Below are positions 10,672 to 19,434 of a DNA stretch of 27,545 nt, one piece after another (within the stretch, counting starts at the first letter, position 1; the number at the start of each line of letters is the position of its first letter). The notes beneath the pieces were generated by a model. The model searched no databases, was not told the origin of the DNA, and was given only the letters and a program-made list of their open reading frames with translations. The position numbers were made by a program, and so were the translations under genes. Source of the stretch: a virus. The stretch covers positions 1 to 27,545 of the IMG/VR virus record IMGVR_UViG_3300009154_003029; one strand, 5' to 3'.

Positions 10672-13600
10672 ATGGCCATCGGCGACATCGTCAGCGATGC
10701 GGATCTGAATGCCATGGCCCCGGCTCCGGAGGCCCCACCCCGGCCTTCAGCCCCACCCGACGGCCCCACCTTCAGCGATGCCGAGATCTCGGCCATGGAG
10801 GATCAGTCCAAGGCTGCCGGTGACATCAATGACGCCTACGCGGCCACGGCTCCGGCCTCCCCGCTTGCTGGCCCCTCCTCCCCCAGTCCCTACGCCCCGA
10901 CCGGACTCGGTCCGACCCAGCCCAAGACCTTCTCCACCCAGGAACTCGACCACCTCGAGGCCGACTCGCTGAACGATCCCTCGGTCGATCTGACCCGCGA
11001 TCAGTGGGACTCGGCCATGGCCGCCCGCAAACGGCTCGGAGGGGGGTTCTGGTCATCGGCTGCTGGGAACATTGCCGGTGGCATCGGTGGACTCATTCAG
11101 ACCACCTACGGCGGCATCAAAGATCTGATGAACTATCCCAAGCCGACGGGGGATTCCAGCCAGGATGCCATCAATACGCTCGAACATGAAACGGCTGTGG
11201 CCAATTCTTGGCTTCAAGGTGTCCGCAATGCCGGGATGAATACCAAACTGCTCTACAAACAAGCCAAACAAGGATTTCAAGGCCTTGTTGATGGATCGGC
11301 CGATGCAGGACTGGTCAATGCCACACCCGAGCAGATCAAGGCCGGGGCCGATGCGGGCTACGGAAACTATCTCGATAACAATGCCTTCAAGCGGGAGATC
11401 GAACATCCCACCGTCAGCTCGGTTCCTCAGATTATTTCGCTGGCTGCTCCCGATGACTCCTCAGGTCAGCTTGTCCAGCAGGCTCTCGCCGCCTCCTTTA
11501 ACAATCCAGCCACGGCCCCGCTCAAGGATCTGACCGAGCTCTCGGCCATAGCTGCGGCCCCTGAGAACCAGATCGCCGGTGCGGCCGGTGCCCTGATCTC
11601 CAAGGTGCCAATCGGCAACATGGTCAAGTATGCCTCCGGCCGCGTGATGCAGGGCCTCGGTAACATGACCATCGTGGCCAATGATACCATCGACAATGTG
11701 GCCAAGGCCGCCATCGACCGGGTCAATGCCGTCATCCCCTCGGTCAAGATCGGCGACAAAATCTACGACGGGGCCGATGTGCTGGGAGCCGCCGGAACGG
11801 GGGCCCTCGGTCTGACAGGGTGGAGTGCCGCTTCCCATAATGAGGATGGGGGGAATCCCCTGTGGAGCGCCATGAAGCCGGTCCTCGGCTATCTCGCCCT
11901 GCGCAAGGGTGCCGCCGTCGTCCGCACAATCGGCCAAGGTGCTCAAGTCACCGGGACCATCCTGCGCGAGGCCTCCGATGTGATGGGACCTCTCCGCCAG
12001 GATGCCCTCGGTGCCATCGCGGCCAATCCCGCCATCCCCGCGGCCTACCGCACGGCGGCCGGTGATGCCGTGGCCACGGGTGGAACCGGTGCCATCGACT
12101 CGACTCCCTCCCGGATCGCCAACTCAACCTCCTATCCCGCCTGGGTGCGCCGACTCGCCGCCAAGGCCAACAATCCCATCCTGACCGGTGCCTCCCGAAT
12201 CACCGGATCAGCGGTCGAGGGTGGCATCGCCGGATCGCTCGCCATGCTCCCCCTGACCCTCGGTCAGGATGAGGAACAGGCCGGGGCCAATGTCGGGGCC
12301 GGATTCGGATTCGGAGCGGTCGGTGGTCTGGCTTCCCGTGTCCTGGGCAACTCGGCCCGCCAGCGCAATCAAGACATTGCCCGATTCCTCGCCGATACCC
12401 AGCTTGCCGGTGGTGACGTGTCCAAGGTGGCTCAGCTCCCGGCGGGTCGCCTCCAGAATCTCGCCGCCATCCAAGGCCTCCTCTCCCTCAAGGGAACCGA
12501 TGTCATCCCGCTCGGTGCCGCCGAGTTTGACAAGCAGGTCGGCACCGCCCTCTCCAATCAACCGGGCATCGCTCCCGCCGATGTGGTCCCCCTCGATGGC
12601 ACCGACTTCTCGGCCAATGTGGCGGCACTCGGTGGCCGTGGTGGCGCAGGATGGTTCGTCGATGGCACGCCAGGGCAACGTGCCCGTGTCTTCATCAACC
12701 TCGATGCGGCTCACCCAGCCGAGATCCACGAGGGGCTCGGCCATGCAATCCTCGCCTCCAATGTCATGGACGGCGCCCAGCGCTCGGACGCACGCAACTT
12801 CATCCAGCAGCTCTACGGCGATGACGGGATCGAGTCCCGCGCCCGCGAGTATGCGAAAGCGCAGGTCGAGGCCGAGGAGTCCTCGCTCCGCCAGCGTGCC
12901 GCCGCTGCCGGTCAACCTCTCCCCACCTTCCCGCCCCTCGAGGATCGGATCTCCCAACGTGTCCAGCAACTCTCCGACAATGGTCTCGCCGCCGGTGACG
13001 AGCATCCCCTTGACTGGGCACGGGATGAGGTCTTCGCCGAGCAGATGAATCAGGCCGGTGTCGACGTGAACTCGATCCGCAAGGGGCTCCCGGCCAATGT
13101 CGATCCCGACGCGGCCACCCGCTCGATCCTCGTTCACAATGCCAGGGCGCTTGCCGCCCAAGGGGTTTCGATCGATCCGCAAACCGGCAAGGTGACGGGA
13201 TCGCTTTCTTCGATCTTCCGTGACAATCCACTGGTCGGCTCCTCACCTGCCCTCTCCAAGCAGCTCGCCCGCTATGTCAGCTCCTACGACTCGTGGCTCA
13301 ACGGCATCGACCTCGGTGCCCGCAGGGTCGAGGGCACCCAGATCGCCCCCTCGGGATCGCCCTACGACATGGCGAGGTCGAACCTAGTCAACCTCCGCCC
13401 CGTCCCCGGGCGTCCGGGTGTCTTCGAAAACGACTTCCTGCGCAATGACAACGGGACGGTCACTTTCAAGTCCCAGGATGAGATCCGCCGCACCGACCAG
13501 CTTCGGAAGGATCAGCTCGCCGCCGCCGTCGGCACCGCCCTCCGACCCAAGAACGACCCGGTCCTCGGCCCGCGCATGGTGGACGGGAAGCGGGTCATCT

Positions 13601-15036
13601 CTGGCTCCCAACTCCCGGCCACAATGGGGGCACTCCAGCATTTCGGCCCATGGATCCAGTCGATTGCTAATACGTTCCGTAATGATGCCGGTCAGGGTGG
13701 CGTCTACCGGATGAAAGTCAACCGCGTCGGCACCGGGGAGACCGGAACCTACAAGGTGATCAACCTCGGCAACATCCGATCGATCACGAGGAACTTCTGG
13801 GAGCCCTTTGAGTACTCGGTCTCCTCCCAGGGCCATCTCCTCGCCCACACGATCGATGACTCGGCCGTCCAGCGGAATGTCCTCAAGGGGGTCAACGAGG
13901 GCCTACTCCCCCACCACAACAACGACGCGGCGGCCGTCCATCAGTCGCTGATGACCTACCTCTCCAACCACAAGCAGGGGCTCCCCTCGGAGAACGCCAT
14001 CGGGATCGGCAAGCGCAACGAGATCAATGCCCTGCTGACCTCCTTCTCCAAGAATCACCGCAACATCAACCCGCTGGCCGCCAACTTCGGCCCCCAGGGT
14101 GTCGTCCGCCGCCTCCGCATGGACCGCATCGAGGATATGAACCGCGTGGTCGACCAGGATAAGGGATCACCCACCTACGGCCAACCCCTGCAGGGATTCC
14201 ATTTCGACTATTTCAAGGTGAACAACAACATGATGCCGGATTTCTGGCACGGGTCACCGCATGATTTTGTTCAGTTTGACTCTAACAAGATTGGCACTGG
14301 GGAAGGAAATCAGACTTACGGCCACGGATTGTATGGTGCCGAAAATAGGTCAGTTGCCGAAGTCTATGGCCAACAAGTAAAAGGTCAGGAGCGTATCGAT
14401 GGAATCAATGCGAGAATGTCGGAGCTTTCCAAGATCATGGATCGCCAGCCAAGGGTTTTCGGAAAAGATGAATTTGCTACTCAGGAGGGACGAGATGCAA
14501 AAGCGGAGTATGATCGCCTGATGGAAGAGAAGCTGAAGCCCGGCAATATCTACAAGGCTCACTTCGACGCTGAACCTCATGAGCTTTTAGATTGGGATAA
14601 GCCGTTGAGCAAACAAAGTGATTTTGTAAAATCTCAACTAAAAGATTCCCCCGGGATGTTGTTTGCTGGTCCAGAGACTACAGGGCAAGCCATTTACAAT
14701 TTACTTGTGAATAATGGTAAAATTGCTCCTTATTATGAAATCCCCAAAGTTAGAGGCCGATATGCTTCTGATTATTTAGCCAGTAAAGGGATCAAAGGGA
14801 TTCAGTTTTTGGATCAGTTCTCAAGAAAAGAAAACAATTACAGGGTGGGTCTTGCGACTCCTAATGAATATGTGGTTTGGGGCCCGGATCGATCTGAGGT
14901 AAGTCCAAGATTCAATACACGAGAGGCGGCATTGAGTTGGCTTGATAACTATGATGCTCCTGGCACGCGAAACTTTGTCATCTTTGACGCCAAGCACGCC
15001 AAGGTTCTGGAGAAGAATGGGAAGCCTATTCAGTGA
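10672..15036 (+). CDS. 1454-aa polyvalent ejection-like protein ending in an ADP-ribosyltransferase-like domain
   Basis: The N-terminus is Pro/Ala-rich with repeated SDADLNAM/SDAEISAM/STQELDHL motifs. Gly/Ala-rich hydrophobic stretches (about residues 125-150 and 515-555) could enter membranes. HEGLGH at 686-691 recalls zincin motifs but has one residue too many. The C-terminal 270 residues resemble ART domains of phage polyvalent proteins: FWHGSP with H1193, YGHGLYG at 1216-1222, ELLDWDKP, then YLASKGIKGIQFLD and FVIFDAKH. These enzymes transfer ADP-ribose from NAD+ to host proteins. DNA from about 14230 to 15036 is more AT-rich than upstream, as if the domain was added later. Inference: delivered into the host with the DNA and modifies host targets. 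The assignment as an ejected virion protein rests on size, composition and position. Confidence 0.65.
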   Translation: MAIGDIVSDADLNAMAPAPEAPPRPSAPPDGPTFSDAEISAMEDQSKAAGDINDAYAATAPASPLAGPSSPSPYAPTGLGPTQPKTFSTQELDHLEADSLNDPSVDLTRDQWDSAMAARKRLGGGFWSSAAGNIAGGIGGLIQTTYGGIKDLMNYPKPTGDSSQDAINTLEHETAVANSWLQGVRNAGMNTKLLYKQAKQGFQGLVDGSADAGLVNATPEQIKAGADAGYGNYLDNNAFKREIEHPTVSSVPQIISLAAPDDSSGQLVQQALAASFNNPATAPLKDLTELSAIAAAPENQIAGAAGALISKVPIGNMVKYASGRVMQGLGNMTIVANDTIDNVAKAAIDRVNAVIPSVKIGDKIYDGADVLGAAGTGALGLTGWSAASHNEDGGNPLWSAMKPVLGYLALRKGAAVVRTIGQGAQVTGTILREASDVMGPLRQDALGAIAANPAIPAAYRTAAGDAVATGGTGAIDSTPSRIANSTSYPAWVRRLAAKANNPILTGASRITGSAVEGGIAGSLAMLPLTLGQDEEQAGANVGAGFGFGAVGGLASRVLGNSARQRNQDIARFLADTQLAGGDVSKVAQLPAGRLQNLAAIQGLLSLKGTDVIPLGAAEFDKQVGTALSNQPGIAPADVVPLDGTDFSANVAALGGRGGAGWFVDGTPGQRARVFINLDAAHPAEIHEGLGHAILASNVMDGAQRSDARNFIQQLYGDDGIESRAREYAKAQVEAEESSLRQRAAAAGQPLPTFPPLEDRISQRVQQLSDNGLAAGDEHPLDWARDEVFAEQMNQAGVDVNSIRKGLPANVDPDAATRSILVHNARALAAQGVSIDPQTGKVTGSLSSIFRDNPLVGSSPALSKQLARYVSSYDSWLNGIDLGARRVEGTQIAPSGSPYDMARSNLVNLRPVPGRPGVFENDFLRNDNGTVTFKSQDEIRRTDQLRKDQLAAAVGTALRPKNDPVLGPRMVDGKRVISGSQLPATMGALQHFGPWIQSIANTFRNDAGQGGVYRMKVNRVGTGETGTYKVINLGNIRSITRNFWEPFEYSVSSQGHLLAHTIDDSAVQRNVLKGVNEGLLPHHNNDAAAVHQSLMTYLSNHKQGLPSENAIGIGKRNEINALLTSFSKNHRNINPLAANFGPQGVVRRLRMDRIEDMNRVVDQDKGSPTYGQPLQGFHFDYFKVNNNMMPDFWHGSPHDFVQFDSNKIGTGEGNQTYGHGLYGAENRSVAEVYGQQVKGQERIDGINARMSELSKIMDRQPRVFGKDEFATQEGRDAKAEYDRLMEEKLKPGNIYKAHFDAEPHELLDWDKPLSKQSDFVKSQLKDSPGMLFAGPETTGQAIYNLLVNNGKIAPYYEIPKVRGRYASDYLASKGIKGIQFLDQFSRKENNYRVGLATPNEYVVWGPDRSEVSPRFNTREAALSWLDNYDAPGTRNFVIFDAKHAKVLEKNGKPIQ

Positions 15037-16502: not shown

Positions 16503-17696
16503 TCAGGGGAGCCCGTAAATCTCGGCACGATCGCTGGCTGAGGCGGCGCTCTGTCCCTTCAGGTAGGTGGCGTAGTAGCGCTCGGTGGTCGTCACGCTGC
16601 GGTGACGCAGGAATCGCTGGGCGGCGTAGATGCCGTGCTTCGTCGCGACAATGGATCCGGCCCACTTCCGCAGCTCGTAGGAGACCTTCTGCCGGTCCTT
16701 GATGAATCTCTCGACGAAGCGGTTGATGTTCCTGTCGCAGACCTGGGCGCGCTCGGTCTTGTTCTTCCCCGGGCAGACGTACTCGGTGGTCGCCTCCTCC
16801 TTGTAGGGCTGCAGCTTCTCCCACAGATCATCCGGCACCTCGATCTCGCCGGTGATCGCCTCCTCGTAGTCGGCCCGGACCCGGAAGGTGCGCGAGAGCC
16901 GGGGCTTCCCATCCATGCCGTAGACGGTCCGCTCCTCGAAGTCGCTCCAGGTGGCCTTCTCCACCTCGCCATTGCGCAGCCCCAGCACGCTCATCATGGC
17001 GTATGGAATCCAGACGGCCTCCCTGATCTCCCAGAGCCGGTGCGCGGCGGCCTCCATGTCGATGACGGTCTGCCGGTCGAGCGGGACGAATCCGTCGACA
17101 TTCTTCTTCTTGAACCTCTTCTTGGCCCGAAAGCCGGTGAGCTCGGGCATGACGAGGTGCCGGTAGATGTCTGAGAAGTTCTCCTGGAGGACGCACCGCG
17201 CCTGTGTGATGGAGCTCTGGATGCTGTGGTCGGGGCGCCGTGGCTCTCCGGTCTCGGGATTGATCGCCCGGCACGCGGCCATGTACTTGCGGATGAGCTC
17301 CTCGGTGAGGATGGCGCCGGAGGTTGCGGGGTTGTACTCCTTCCCGGTGGCGGTGCTGACCAGCTCCTCGAGGCTCCCGGCATACTGACGGATGGATCGC
17401 GGGCTAAGTAGGGTCTGGGCTCCGCTCGTGCGGAAGGCCTCAAGGATCTCTCCCAACGTAGCAGTCCGCTTGGGAGCCACGACCTTCACCGCGGGCTTCC
17501 AGTCGTTCTTTTCAAGAGCATCAAGCTCCTTCTTGGCGCGTTCGACGGCTGCGGTTTTCTGGGTGGTGCGGAGGCTCTTCCAGATCGGTCGGGCATTCCG
17601 GGTGAGGCGGAGATAGAACTTGCCGCCGCGCTGCCAGAGGGTGTAGTTTTCGCCCCGATGATTCAGGATCGTATCAGTTTTGGTTGCAAGGCTCAT
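16503..17696 (-). CDS. int: Tyrosine integrase
   Basis: This 397-aa protein fits phage tyrosine recombinases: an N-terminal arm-binding and core-binding half, then a catalytic half. Box I Arg is R241 (GLRNGEV). Box II reads Y340-E-L-R343, with Tyr in place of the usual His of H-x-x-R. LRHRS supplies H365, and TERYY (374-375) holds the nucleophile Tyr. The basic segment GFRAKKRFKKK near 188-198 is unusual and could contact DNA. It should catalyse site-specific insertion and excision. The attP-like region lies directly upstream of its start, within about 280 bp. There is no SD before the ATG. Expression is on the minus strand, away from the early operon. Confidence 0.9.
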   Translation of the reverse strand: MSLATKTDTILNHRGENYTLWQRGGKFYLRLTRNARPIWKSLRTTQKTAAVERAKKELDALEKNDWKPAVKVVAPKRTATLGEILEAFRTSGAQTLLSPRSIRQYAGSLEELVSTATGKEYNPATSGAILTEELIRKYMAACRAINPETGEPRRPDHSIQSSITQARCVLQENFSDIYRHLVMPELTGFRAKKRFKKKNVDGFVPLDRQTVIDMEAAAHRLWEIREAVWIPYAMMSVLGLRNGEVEKATWSDFEERTVYGMDGKPRLSRTFRVRADYEEAITGEIEVPDDLWEKLQPYKEEATTEYVCPGKNKTERAQVCDRNINRFVERFIKDRQKVSYELRKWAGSIVATKHGIYAAQRFLRHRSVTTTERYYATYLKGQSAASASDRAEIYGLP

Positions 17697-17715
17697 GGGA
17701 TTTTACTCTGTGGGG

Positions 17716-17978
17716 TTGTAGCAATTTTGGGATTTTGCTGTGCGATTTGTGAGATGCTGACCAAATGCTACGTCTTTGCTACGTTTCTGGCAAGTGCTTC
17801 TTTGCTTCGTGTTGTGCGGTCTTGTATCGTAGCAACTGGGGTACAATCAGAGTGGAATCATCTGATGGTTGGATTTTACAGAGTATCGCCGCTTTAGCTC
17901 AGTCGGTAGAGCATCTCATTCGTAATTCCCTGTTCTCTTCTTTTGGGGGGTTGGTGATACGTTTCCTGCTACGTTTCC
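17716..17978. other. attP: arm-type repeats flanking a tRNA-Thr half
   Basis: Six copies of a GCTACG-type motif surround the tRNA half. Left side: TTGTAGCAA (17716-17724, inverted), TGCTACGT (17766-17773), TGCTACGTTTC (17777-17787) and TCGTAGCAA (17827-17835, inverted). Right side: GATACGTTTCC (17956-17966) and TGCTACGTTTCC (17967-17978). Repeated sites on both sides of a core are the layout of an attP, with P and P' arms bound by the N-terminal domain of the integrase. The integrase gene is adjacent. A TACAAT hexamer at 17842-17847 could be the -10 of a promoter for the rebuilt tRNA. Confidence 0.65.
17888..17926 (+). other. attP core: 5' half of tRNA-Thr(CGT)
   Basis: The sequence reads as a tRNA from the acceptor strand GCCGCTT through the D-arm (GCTCAGTCGGTAGAGC) and anticodon stem TCTCA to the anticodon loop TTCGTAA, anticodon CGT. 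After 17926 the match stops: the expected stem TGAGA is replaced by TTCCC. It is therefore a half tRNA, most likely the identity segment shared with the host attB. The phage would replace the 5' half of the host tRNA upon integration, which is less common than replacing the 3' end. Confidence 0.75.
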
Positions 17979-18542
17979 GCTCAGGCATCCGGGGTGTGAT
18001 CGCACCCAAAGACGCAGGTATCCGAGCAATGCGTGGGTGTCGATTCGTGCGTCCTTATCGAGGCCGGTGTCGCGCTTCCAGTCGATGGCTAACTGTTTCA
18101 TGCAGTCGCTAGTGAGTTGGTTGTGCAGCCAGGCATATTTGCCGAAGTTGTTGTAGTTCGCTGGTGGGGGGATTTCTTTATTTGCTTCCTTGGTCGTGGC
18201 CGTGGGTGCCCTTCTCGGGATCGGGGGCATGATGGGCAGGTTGTATGCTGGTGCTGAAACGGTGGCCATTTCTACAAGCGGATCGGCCTTCGGGGTGACG
18301 ATGGGCACTATTTCACCTCGAGGGGTGACGGTTGCACTGACGGTGGTGCCTGGCGCGGCCGTGACCCCTCCCCATGATCCGGATCGTGGCCCGGCATTCC
18401 AAACGGTGTAATTGTAGCCGTTATAAGTCGGGGTGATGACGGTGGTCTGGGGCCAGCTGTTGTTGCCGTAGGTGGTGATGGTCTGTGGCATCTGCGCAAC
18501 GGCTGCGCAGGTGCAGAGTAGGAGTGCGAGGAGAGTTTTCAT
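17916..18542 (-). CDS. Secreted protein of unknown function, lysogenic accessory
   Basis: This 208-aa protein starts at the ATG that follows the next upstream gene by an ATGA overlap. A classical signal peptide (MKTLLALLLCTCAAVAQ, cleavage after AVA) is followed by an Asn/Tyr/Thr/Pro-rich region (TITTYGNNSWPQTTVITPTY), a Pro-rich linker and a compact C-terminal part with Trp and Cys (YAWLHNQLTSDCMKQLAIDW). A longer start at 18596 would mask the signal. Its stop lies inside the tRNA half, so the C-terminus runs into attP and integration could change it. It could be a periplasmic or surface lysogenic-conversion factor; no family is recognised. Confidence 0.55.
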   Translation of the reverse strand: MKTLLALLLCTCAAVAQMPQTITTYGNNSWPQTTVITPTYNGYNYTVWNAGPRSGSWGGVTAAPGTTVSATVTPRGEIVPIVTPKADPLVEMATVSAPAYNLPIMPPIPRRAPTATTKEANKEIPPPANYNNFGKYAWLHNQLTSDCMKQLAIDWKRDTGLDKDARIDTHALLGYLRLWVRSHPGCLSGNVAGNVSPTPQKKRTGNYE

Positions 18543-18851: not shown

Positions 18852-19208
18852 TCAGGCTTTCGACCGCGATTTCTTGGTTTGCGGGGGCTCTTCAGCCACC
18901 CGTGCGGGTGGTAGCTCCATGGGTGTGGTCAAGTAGCCGTGGAGTGGGGTGCGCTTGAACTCTTGGGCCTCTCTCCAGGCATGAATAAGTGCCTCGCGCA
19001 TCCAGGTGGATCGGCTGATGCAGTCCCGGCGGGCAAGGTGGTCGATCCGGCTCACCAGGTCTTTCTCTATTGAGAAACCTACTTGTGTCGAATCTTTGCC
19101 CAGAACTCGCTTTTTTGGTTCTTTCACATCTTTACCATCGCACCTTTCAAAGACATTGAAAGTCTTTATTTTGTAACCTGTGAAAATCTGTGAAAGATTT
19201 TGTTGCAT
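18852..19208 (-). CDS. Ribbon-helix-helix regulator, candidate lysogeny repressor
   Basis: This 118-aa protein has an RHH domain at about residues 40-80: beta strand STQVGFSI, helix EKDLVSRIDHLARRD, turn, helix SRSTWMREALIHAWRE. A basic Pro-rich tail follows. RHH proteins bind DNA as dimers through the strand. The ATG at 19208 is chosen, but a GTG at 19127 would drop 27 poorly conserved residues and leave all operator-like repeats upstream. It diverges from a second RHH gene at 19255. That, and its place beside attP and integrase, suggests control of the early genes. Confidence 0.65.
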   Translation of the reverse strand: MQQNLSQIFTGYKIKTFNVFERCDGKDVKEPKKRVLGKDSTQVGFSIEKDLVSRIDHLARRDCISRSTWMREALIHAWREAQEFKRTPLHGYLTTPMELPPARVAEEPPQTKKSRSKA

Positions 19209-19231
19209 GATTCTGTGATAGTCTGTAAAAG
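19177..19231. promoter_or_regulatory. Tandem decamer operators between divergent RHH genes
   Basis: Two tandem pairs of a decamer are seen: CCTGTGAAAA with TCTGTGAAAG (19177-19196), and TCTGTGATAG with TCTGTAAAAG (19212-19231). Copies in each pair are exactly 10 bp apart, one helical turn, as expected for side-by-side RHH dimers. A palindrome CTTTCAA-AGACA-TTGAAAG lies next to them at 19144-19162. The pairs flank the start of the leftward RHH gene and precede the rightward operon. Confidence 0.6.
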
Positions 19232-19254
19232 GTTTCCAAGTAAGCAAAACCCTT

Positions 19255-19434
19255 ATGCCCAACACGACCACCATCGCGGCCTCCGGAGTCCCACAGGACC
19301 TAGTTCTGTGGCTCGACGAGCAGGCGAAACAACAATGCACCAACCGCTCGACGATCATTCGTCAGATCATCACTCAGCGCGTCGCTGGGGAGTCTGTTAA
19401 TGAGTCGCAAGAGTCCCAGAAGGAGGTCGCATGA
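19255..19434 (+). CDS. 59-aa ribbon-helix-helix protein, Cro/CII-like position
   Basis: The short protein (MPNTTTIAASGVPQDLVLWL, continuing DEQAKQQCTNRSTIIRQIIT) fits an RHH domain: an N-terminal strand, helix PQDLVLWLDEQAK, turn NRS and helix STIIRQIITQRV. It diverges from the other RHH gene and opens the rightward early operon, the position of a Cro- or antirepressor-type regulator. Its stop overlaps the next start (ATGA). There is no clear SD in front of its ATG. Confidence 0.6.
   Translation: MPNTTTIAASGVPQDLVLWLDEQAKQQCTNRSTIIRQIITQRVAGESVNESQESQKEVA

Follow-up and report, generated by a model that had tools for sequence, protein, structure and literature searches.

Organization of the integrase locus

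The window, i.e., the whole stretch of 27,545 nucleotides analyzed here (IMG/VR record IMGVR_UViG_3300009154_003029, positions 1 to 27,545), carries a tyrosine-recombinase integrase gene (int) whose start codon faces a putative phage attachment site (attP). The gene starts 191 bp from a tRNA-Thr(CGT) 5' half and is read divergently, away from this half. The locus comprises the following features.

16503-17696, minus strand: tyrosine-recombinase integrase, 397 aa (PHROG, Pfam, AlphaFold model)
17697-17978, no strand assigned: entire putative attP region (P arm, core, P' arm), uniting all component features
17717-17724, minus strand: inverted arm-like site TTGCTACA, adjoining the int start; conserved in relative L002
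17765-17793, minus strand: TTGCCA-17-TAGCAT, candidate promoter of int; the left arm sites overlap it, and L002 and L003 have kept the -35
17766-17783, plus strand: left arm sites in tandem, two copies of TGCTACG (17766 and 17777); offsets of about -123/-111 from the tRNA start, same in relatives
17828-17834, minus strand: single inverted arm site TGCTACG; conserved in L002, with one mismatch in L011
17846-17866, no strand assigned: second CAGAGT element, within the inverted repeat ATCAGAgtggaatcaTCTGAT; conserved in L003 and L011
17875-17887, plus strand: TTTACAGAGTATC, a CAGAGT element directly adjoining the tRNA 5' end; most relatives keep it at -13, and it is enriched about 30-fold at attP
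17888-17926, plus strand: tRNA-Thr(CGT) 5' half, nt 1-39; block in which attP and attB are identical, matching host tRNA genes exactly
17919-17925, plus strand: anticodon loop TTCGTAA (anticodon CGT at 17921-17923), proposed 7-bp overlap for strand exchange
17955-17973, plus strand: right tandem arm sites, TGATACG at 17955 and TGCTACG at 17967; offsets of +67/+79, conserved in relatives

The integrase was recognized by a PHROG integrase match (E value of 7.6e-18), by a match to PF00589 barely above the Pfam cut-off, and by an AlphaFold model (mean pLDDT of 79, pTM of 0.50) whose best PDB match is full-length lambda Int (1z1b/5j0n); the predicted fold is of the lambda-Int type. No match was obtained with the integrase profile among the sequences of solved structures, and tblastn retrieved no relatives from annotated phage genomes. 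The candidate promoter facing int is the sole promoter-like match within 17600-18100. Elsewhere in the window, a sulfotransferase-like gene (PF03567; 78-878, plus strand) might represent host-modifying cargo, and a 1,454-aa ORF (10672-15036, plus strand) has no PHROG match.

Positions 17888-17926 (GCCGCTTTAGCTCAGTCGGTAGAGCATCTCATTCGTAAT) correspond exactly to nt 1-39 of the intact tRNA-Thr(CGT) found in host genomes. The identity begins with the first base of the mature tRNA, runs through the 7-nt anticodon loop, and ends one base beyond it, at 17926, after which the host continues with GAGAGGG and the phage with TCCCTG; two extra bases (TC) in front of the mature start that match host genome G021 are a chance agreement. 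In the window, neither a tRNA 3' half nor, by ARAGORN, any tRNA was detected, and Rfam reported no known RNA family and no intron. The first-pass annotation had described a 39-bp tRNA 5' half that stops abruptly at the anticodon loop, lies next to an integrase, and is flanked by phage genes on both sides; the exact host match, the distance of 191 bp to int, and the neighboring genes bear it out in all three respects.

The same holds for its six GCTACG-type motifs in direct and inverted orientation, whose coordinates were correct to within 1 or 2 bases. Exact copies of TGCTACG are located at 17766, 17777, 17828 (inverted), and 17967, i.e., four compared with about 0.05 expected in that stretch, and two further sites at 17717 (inverted) and 17955 deviate by one mismatch. 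Scored as an 8-mer with at most one mismatch at 13 loci, the arm motif TTGCTACG is about 20 times denser at attP than elsewhere. The tandem pairs occupy their fixed offsets in relatives wherever the motif is recognizable, and a distant group (L006, L008, and L014) has kept the right tandem pair with a different motif, e.g., TTGCGTCGGATTTTGCGTCGG.

A second type of conserved element, CAGAGTAA, occurs twice, immediately 5' of the tRNA and about 31 bp farther out. L002 has retained the CAGAGT arm of the outer repeat without the full inverted repeat. At a guess, the CAGAGT elements could be the site of a regulator or a recombination directionality factor (RDF). A ribbon-helix-helix protein (RHH_1; 18852-19358, minus strand) is encoded close to attP and is a candidate for either role.

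Distribution of the half tRNA among related phages

Relatives were sampled as 16 IMG/VR contigs picked by their integrase alone (33 to 97% identity), and the sample is therefore unbiased towards the tRNA. The same tRNA half and the same arm geometry are present in 13 of them, at a distance of 150 to 239 bp from int, and the 13 halves vary in only two D-loop bases, at a position that also differs between hosts. An additional integrase relative in a MAG bears the half as well. In a separate pattern scan, 17 contigs proved to contain the half, and all of them lack an intact tRNA-Thr; since the scan demanded the 37 fixed positions, its hits are no evidence for the conservation of these positions, for which the integrase-based set counts.

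Next to int, the half was missing in three of the 16 contigs, the most distant ones (33 to 34%), and these relatives must use another target. L087, L088, and L089, with integrases 33 to 34% identical and without the tRNA-Thr half, have similar arm repeats (GGCTACAACTT) and a conserved core-like sequence, TCGCTGAATGACATTTTGC, that suggests a different target. In a tree of 18 integrases the tRNA-Thr users cluster, and the L004/L008/L014 group is placed beside two relatives lacking the half. The half may thus have been gained once and lost, or gained twice; either history would fit the tree, whose long branches make the deep joins unsafe.

Hosts and integrated forms

Of the 22 genomes in the family to which the MAG belongs, 12 have an intact matching tRNA-Thr(CGT) and one more has an interrupted copy; among the other 191 genomes of the same order there was none. 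The host family probably belongs to the Verrucomicrobiota. The EUB338-III site typical of this phylum is present in the full 16S rRNA gene of G017, the only one readable in the family, and in the 16S fragments of G166; because the signature comes from these two genomes and the G001 record has a conflicting title, the phylum is an indirect assignment. That record (L021, RFPR01000149.1) is titled Proteobacteria bacterium, perhaps in error, since a 16S signature of the Verrucomicrobiota type was read in a genome of the same family. The half tRNA provides a specific host link for phage contigs that are otherwise hostless.

The first-pass annotation had proposed a search for host tRNA-Thr(CGT) genes with prophage junctions, and both genes and junctions were found. 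Contig L012 is identical to the free phage L010 over 3,681 of 3,681 bp, from the phage interior to the tRNA start, and to host G021 over 103 of 103 bp across the tRNA half and the region upstream of the tRNA. These identities mark L012 as a natural attL, formed when the phage entered tRNA-Thr(CGT): the host promoter now precedes only half of its gene, and the phage resumes from the anticodon loop. A second tRNA-Thr attL is located at a contig end of MAG G012; beyond this, the search for further prophages in the host family yielded only weak integrase matches (G012 and G015). A natural attR of the tRNA-Thr phages was not recovered, and a scan of viral contigs for the tRNA 3' half gave no match; attL was thus found twice, and attR only for a tRNA-Lys homologue. 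A modelled attR, composed of the window and host sequence, is called tRNA-Thr(cgt) by ARAGORN, which makes no such call for attP or attL. The natural junctions all come from relatives, and no integration of this exact phage was observed.

The tRNA-Lys homologue resides in G166, where the neighbor of a distantly related integrase gene is an intact tRNA-Lys(CTT) with its 5' side towards int and with arm repeats in between. A displaced 38-nt 5' half of tRNA-Lys, followed by arm repeats, is situated 45 kb from the intact tRNA. Both ends, i.e., the displaced 5' half upstream and the intact tRNA at the far end, can accordingly be seen in G166, and the displaced half in L012. From this arrangement, the G166 integrase appears to use tRNA-Lys(CTT) in the same 5'-half mode. 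The sequence upstream of the displaced half (L066, contig C58 of G166, just above 89137) resembles the start of the neighboring related integrase gene, so tandem integrations seem to be stacked at one tRNA. The element also bears type I restriction-modification genes and a DRT4/DRT6-like reverse transcriptase (L072 and L073, contig C58, 45 to 85 kb), and by its gene content is a putative defence island moved by a 5'-mode integrase.

A phage-borne 5' half of a host tRNA at a probable attachment site

An adjacent tyrosine integrase, a tRNA identity ending by the anticodon loop, and flanking arm repeats occur together at 17697-17978. We conclude with high confidence (probability of about 0.93) that this region represents an intact attP, belonging to a temperate phage or to its unintegrated form, and that the phage contributes the 5' half of the host tRNA-Thr(CGT). 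The half itself, the host tRNA genes, the natural attL, the arms, the pattern across the clade, and the tRNA-Lys analogue carry this conclusion, and with them the original claim of an intact attP stands. The two findings named beforehand as speaking against it did not appear: attL holds only a half tRNA instead of an intact tRNA-Thr at both junctions, and the half is present in nearly all relatives.

According to the proposed mechanism, the lambda-Int-type recombinase would bind the tandem arm sites flanking the core. Strand exchange would take place where attP equals attB, in the anticodon loop of tRNA-Thr(CGT), a single gene in the host. The 7-bp overlap between the presumed cuts is placed at 17919-17925 on account of where the identity ends in 14 integrase-linked attPs and in the tRNA-Lys element of G166. 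Since the phage carries nt 1-39, integration would leave the host promoter with the orphan 5' half at attL and rebuild a complete tRNA-Thr from the phage 5' half and the host 3' half at attR, beside int; the predicted attR junction joins position 17926 to GAGAGGGTC.

Several other explanations of the half tRNA have to be weighed. Phages often bear tRNAs, and introns interrupt anticodon loops, so the half could in principle be the remnant of a decayed phage-encoded tRNA gene or part of an intron-split one; with no 3' half, no Rfam intron, and an identical breakpoint in every relative, this origin is very improbable, and it was rejected because the attL of L012 contradicts it. Hardly more credible is tRNA-dependent lysogeny as in mycobacteriophage Fionnbharth, in which a host tRNA is broken, likewise at the anticodon loop, and the phage brings a complete copy: the core measures 39 bp here versus about 10 bp there, the window has no tRNA, and the modelled attR is an intact tRNA.

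The half might also serve as a recombination core only, the rebuilt gene being barely transcribed and ACG being read by another tRNA-Thr. The promoter data favor this reading. Host tRNA-Thr copies have a TTGCC[A/T]-16-TAnnnT promoter at a fixed place, ending 14 to 20 nt before the tRNA, and none was found before the half in 14 phages, in nearly all of which the best plus-strand promoter candidates upstream of the half are no better than shuffled sequence. The TACAAT box at 17842, previously suggested as a replacement promoter, does exist, but no relative shares it (L002, L003, and L011 all lack it), and it was discarded in this role since it is missing even from the phage with a 97% identical integrase. 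The extent of the identity nevertheless makes a mere core unlikely, as it reaches the first mature tRNA base, over 30 bp away from the crossover, and the half is kept in all 13 half-bearing, integrase-selected IMG/VR phages, down to 34 to 37% integrase identity. A lambda-type core requires less than such a length beyond the crossover. The simplest reason for the long conserved identity would be selection on tRNA function.

In the favored reading of an attP that rebuilds the tRNA, the acceptor and D-arm parts have remained unchanged far from the crossover, which suggests that the rebuilt tRNA-Thr is in use and would accordingly have to be transcribed from phage DNA. An element that replaces the 5' half of a tRNA also replaces its promoter, and lysogeny could thereby alter tRNA supply. 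A more far-reaching, speculative and rather doubtful extension is that lysogeny places the single-copy host tRNA-Thr(CGT) under phage regulation, so that the decoding of ACG would depend on phage proteins at attR. If true, the conserved sigma-70 promoter is lost to the rebuilt tRNA, which instead follows arm sites and two operator-like CAGAGT elements and may also signal the state of the prophage. Many independent attPs, a matched pair of free phage and attL, and a clear native host promoter make the question of transcription directly testable in this clade.

Comparison with known integration systems

Classical tRNA-targeting lambdoid integrases share with the present system the lambda-Int-like fold, tandem arm sites, P and P' arms, and an overlap in the anticodon loop, but they carry the 3' half of the tRNA, which therefore keeps its own promoter. 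One such 3'-half example is P22 at E. coli thrW, which is also a tRNA-Thr(CGT).

The statement of the first-pass annotation that most tRNA-targeting phages carry the 3' end agrees with the Islander database, in which 3,760 of 3,919 islands have 3' and 159 have 5' tDNA fragments (PMC4383910). As in the present case, the 5' class is characterized by a displaced 5' fragment and an intact tRNA with an element-derived 5' part (PMC4383910); Islander was built from 2012 genomes, and its comparison with the clade, hosts, and tRNA-Thr(CGT) target described here is one of class description. In bacterial tRNAs rebuilt by elements, the original promoter drives expression with very few exceptions, according to a review, whereas the archaeal pTN3 integrases use a tRNA 5' half and part the rebuilt tRNA from its original promoter (PMC5495485, PMC8371274). 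The attP/attB identity of the pTN3 type in Thermococcales, a 41-bp 5' half of tRNA-Leu, resembles the one described here, but pTN3 is archaeal and its attP lies inside int, which is disrupted upon integration, while here attP is 191 bp outside and int stays whole (PMC5495485, PMC8371274). A suicidal integrase of the pTN3 type was dismissed for this location of attP. Mycobacteriophages with tRNA-dependent lysogeny have in common with the present phages a tyrosine integrase, a host tRNA target, and the need to secure tRNA supply, but in them lysogeny does not restore the target, and a complete tRNA is encoded by the phage (PMC10865867).

The 5'-half class is rare and, according to the cited literature, seldom met in bacteria. 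Compared by description with the classes in the literature, the present phages are a new clade of this rare but known class.
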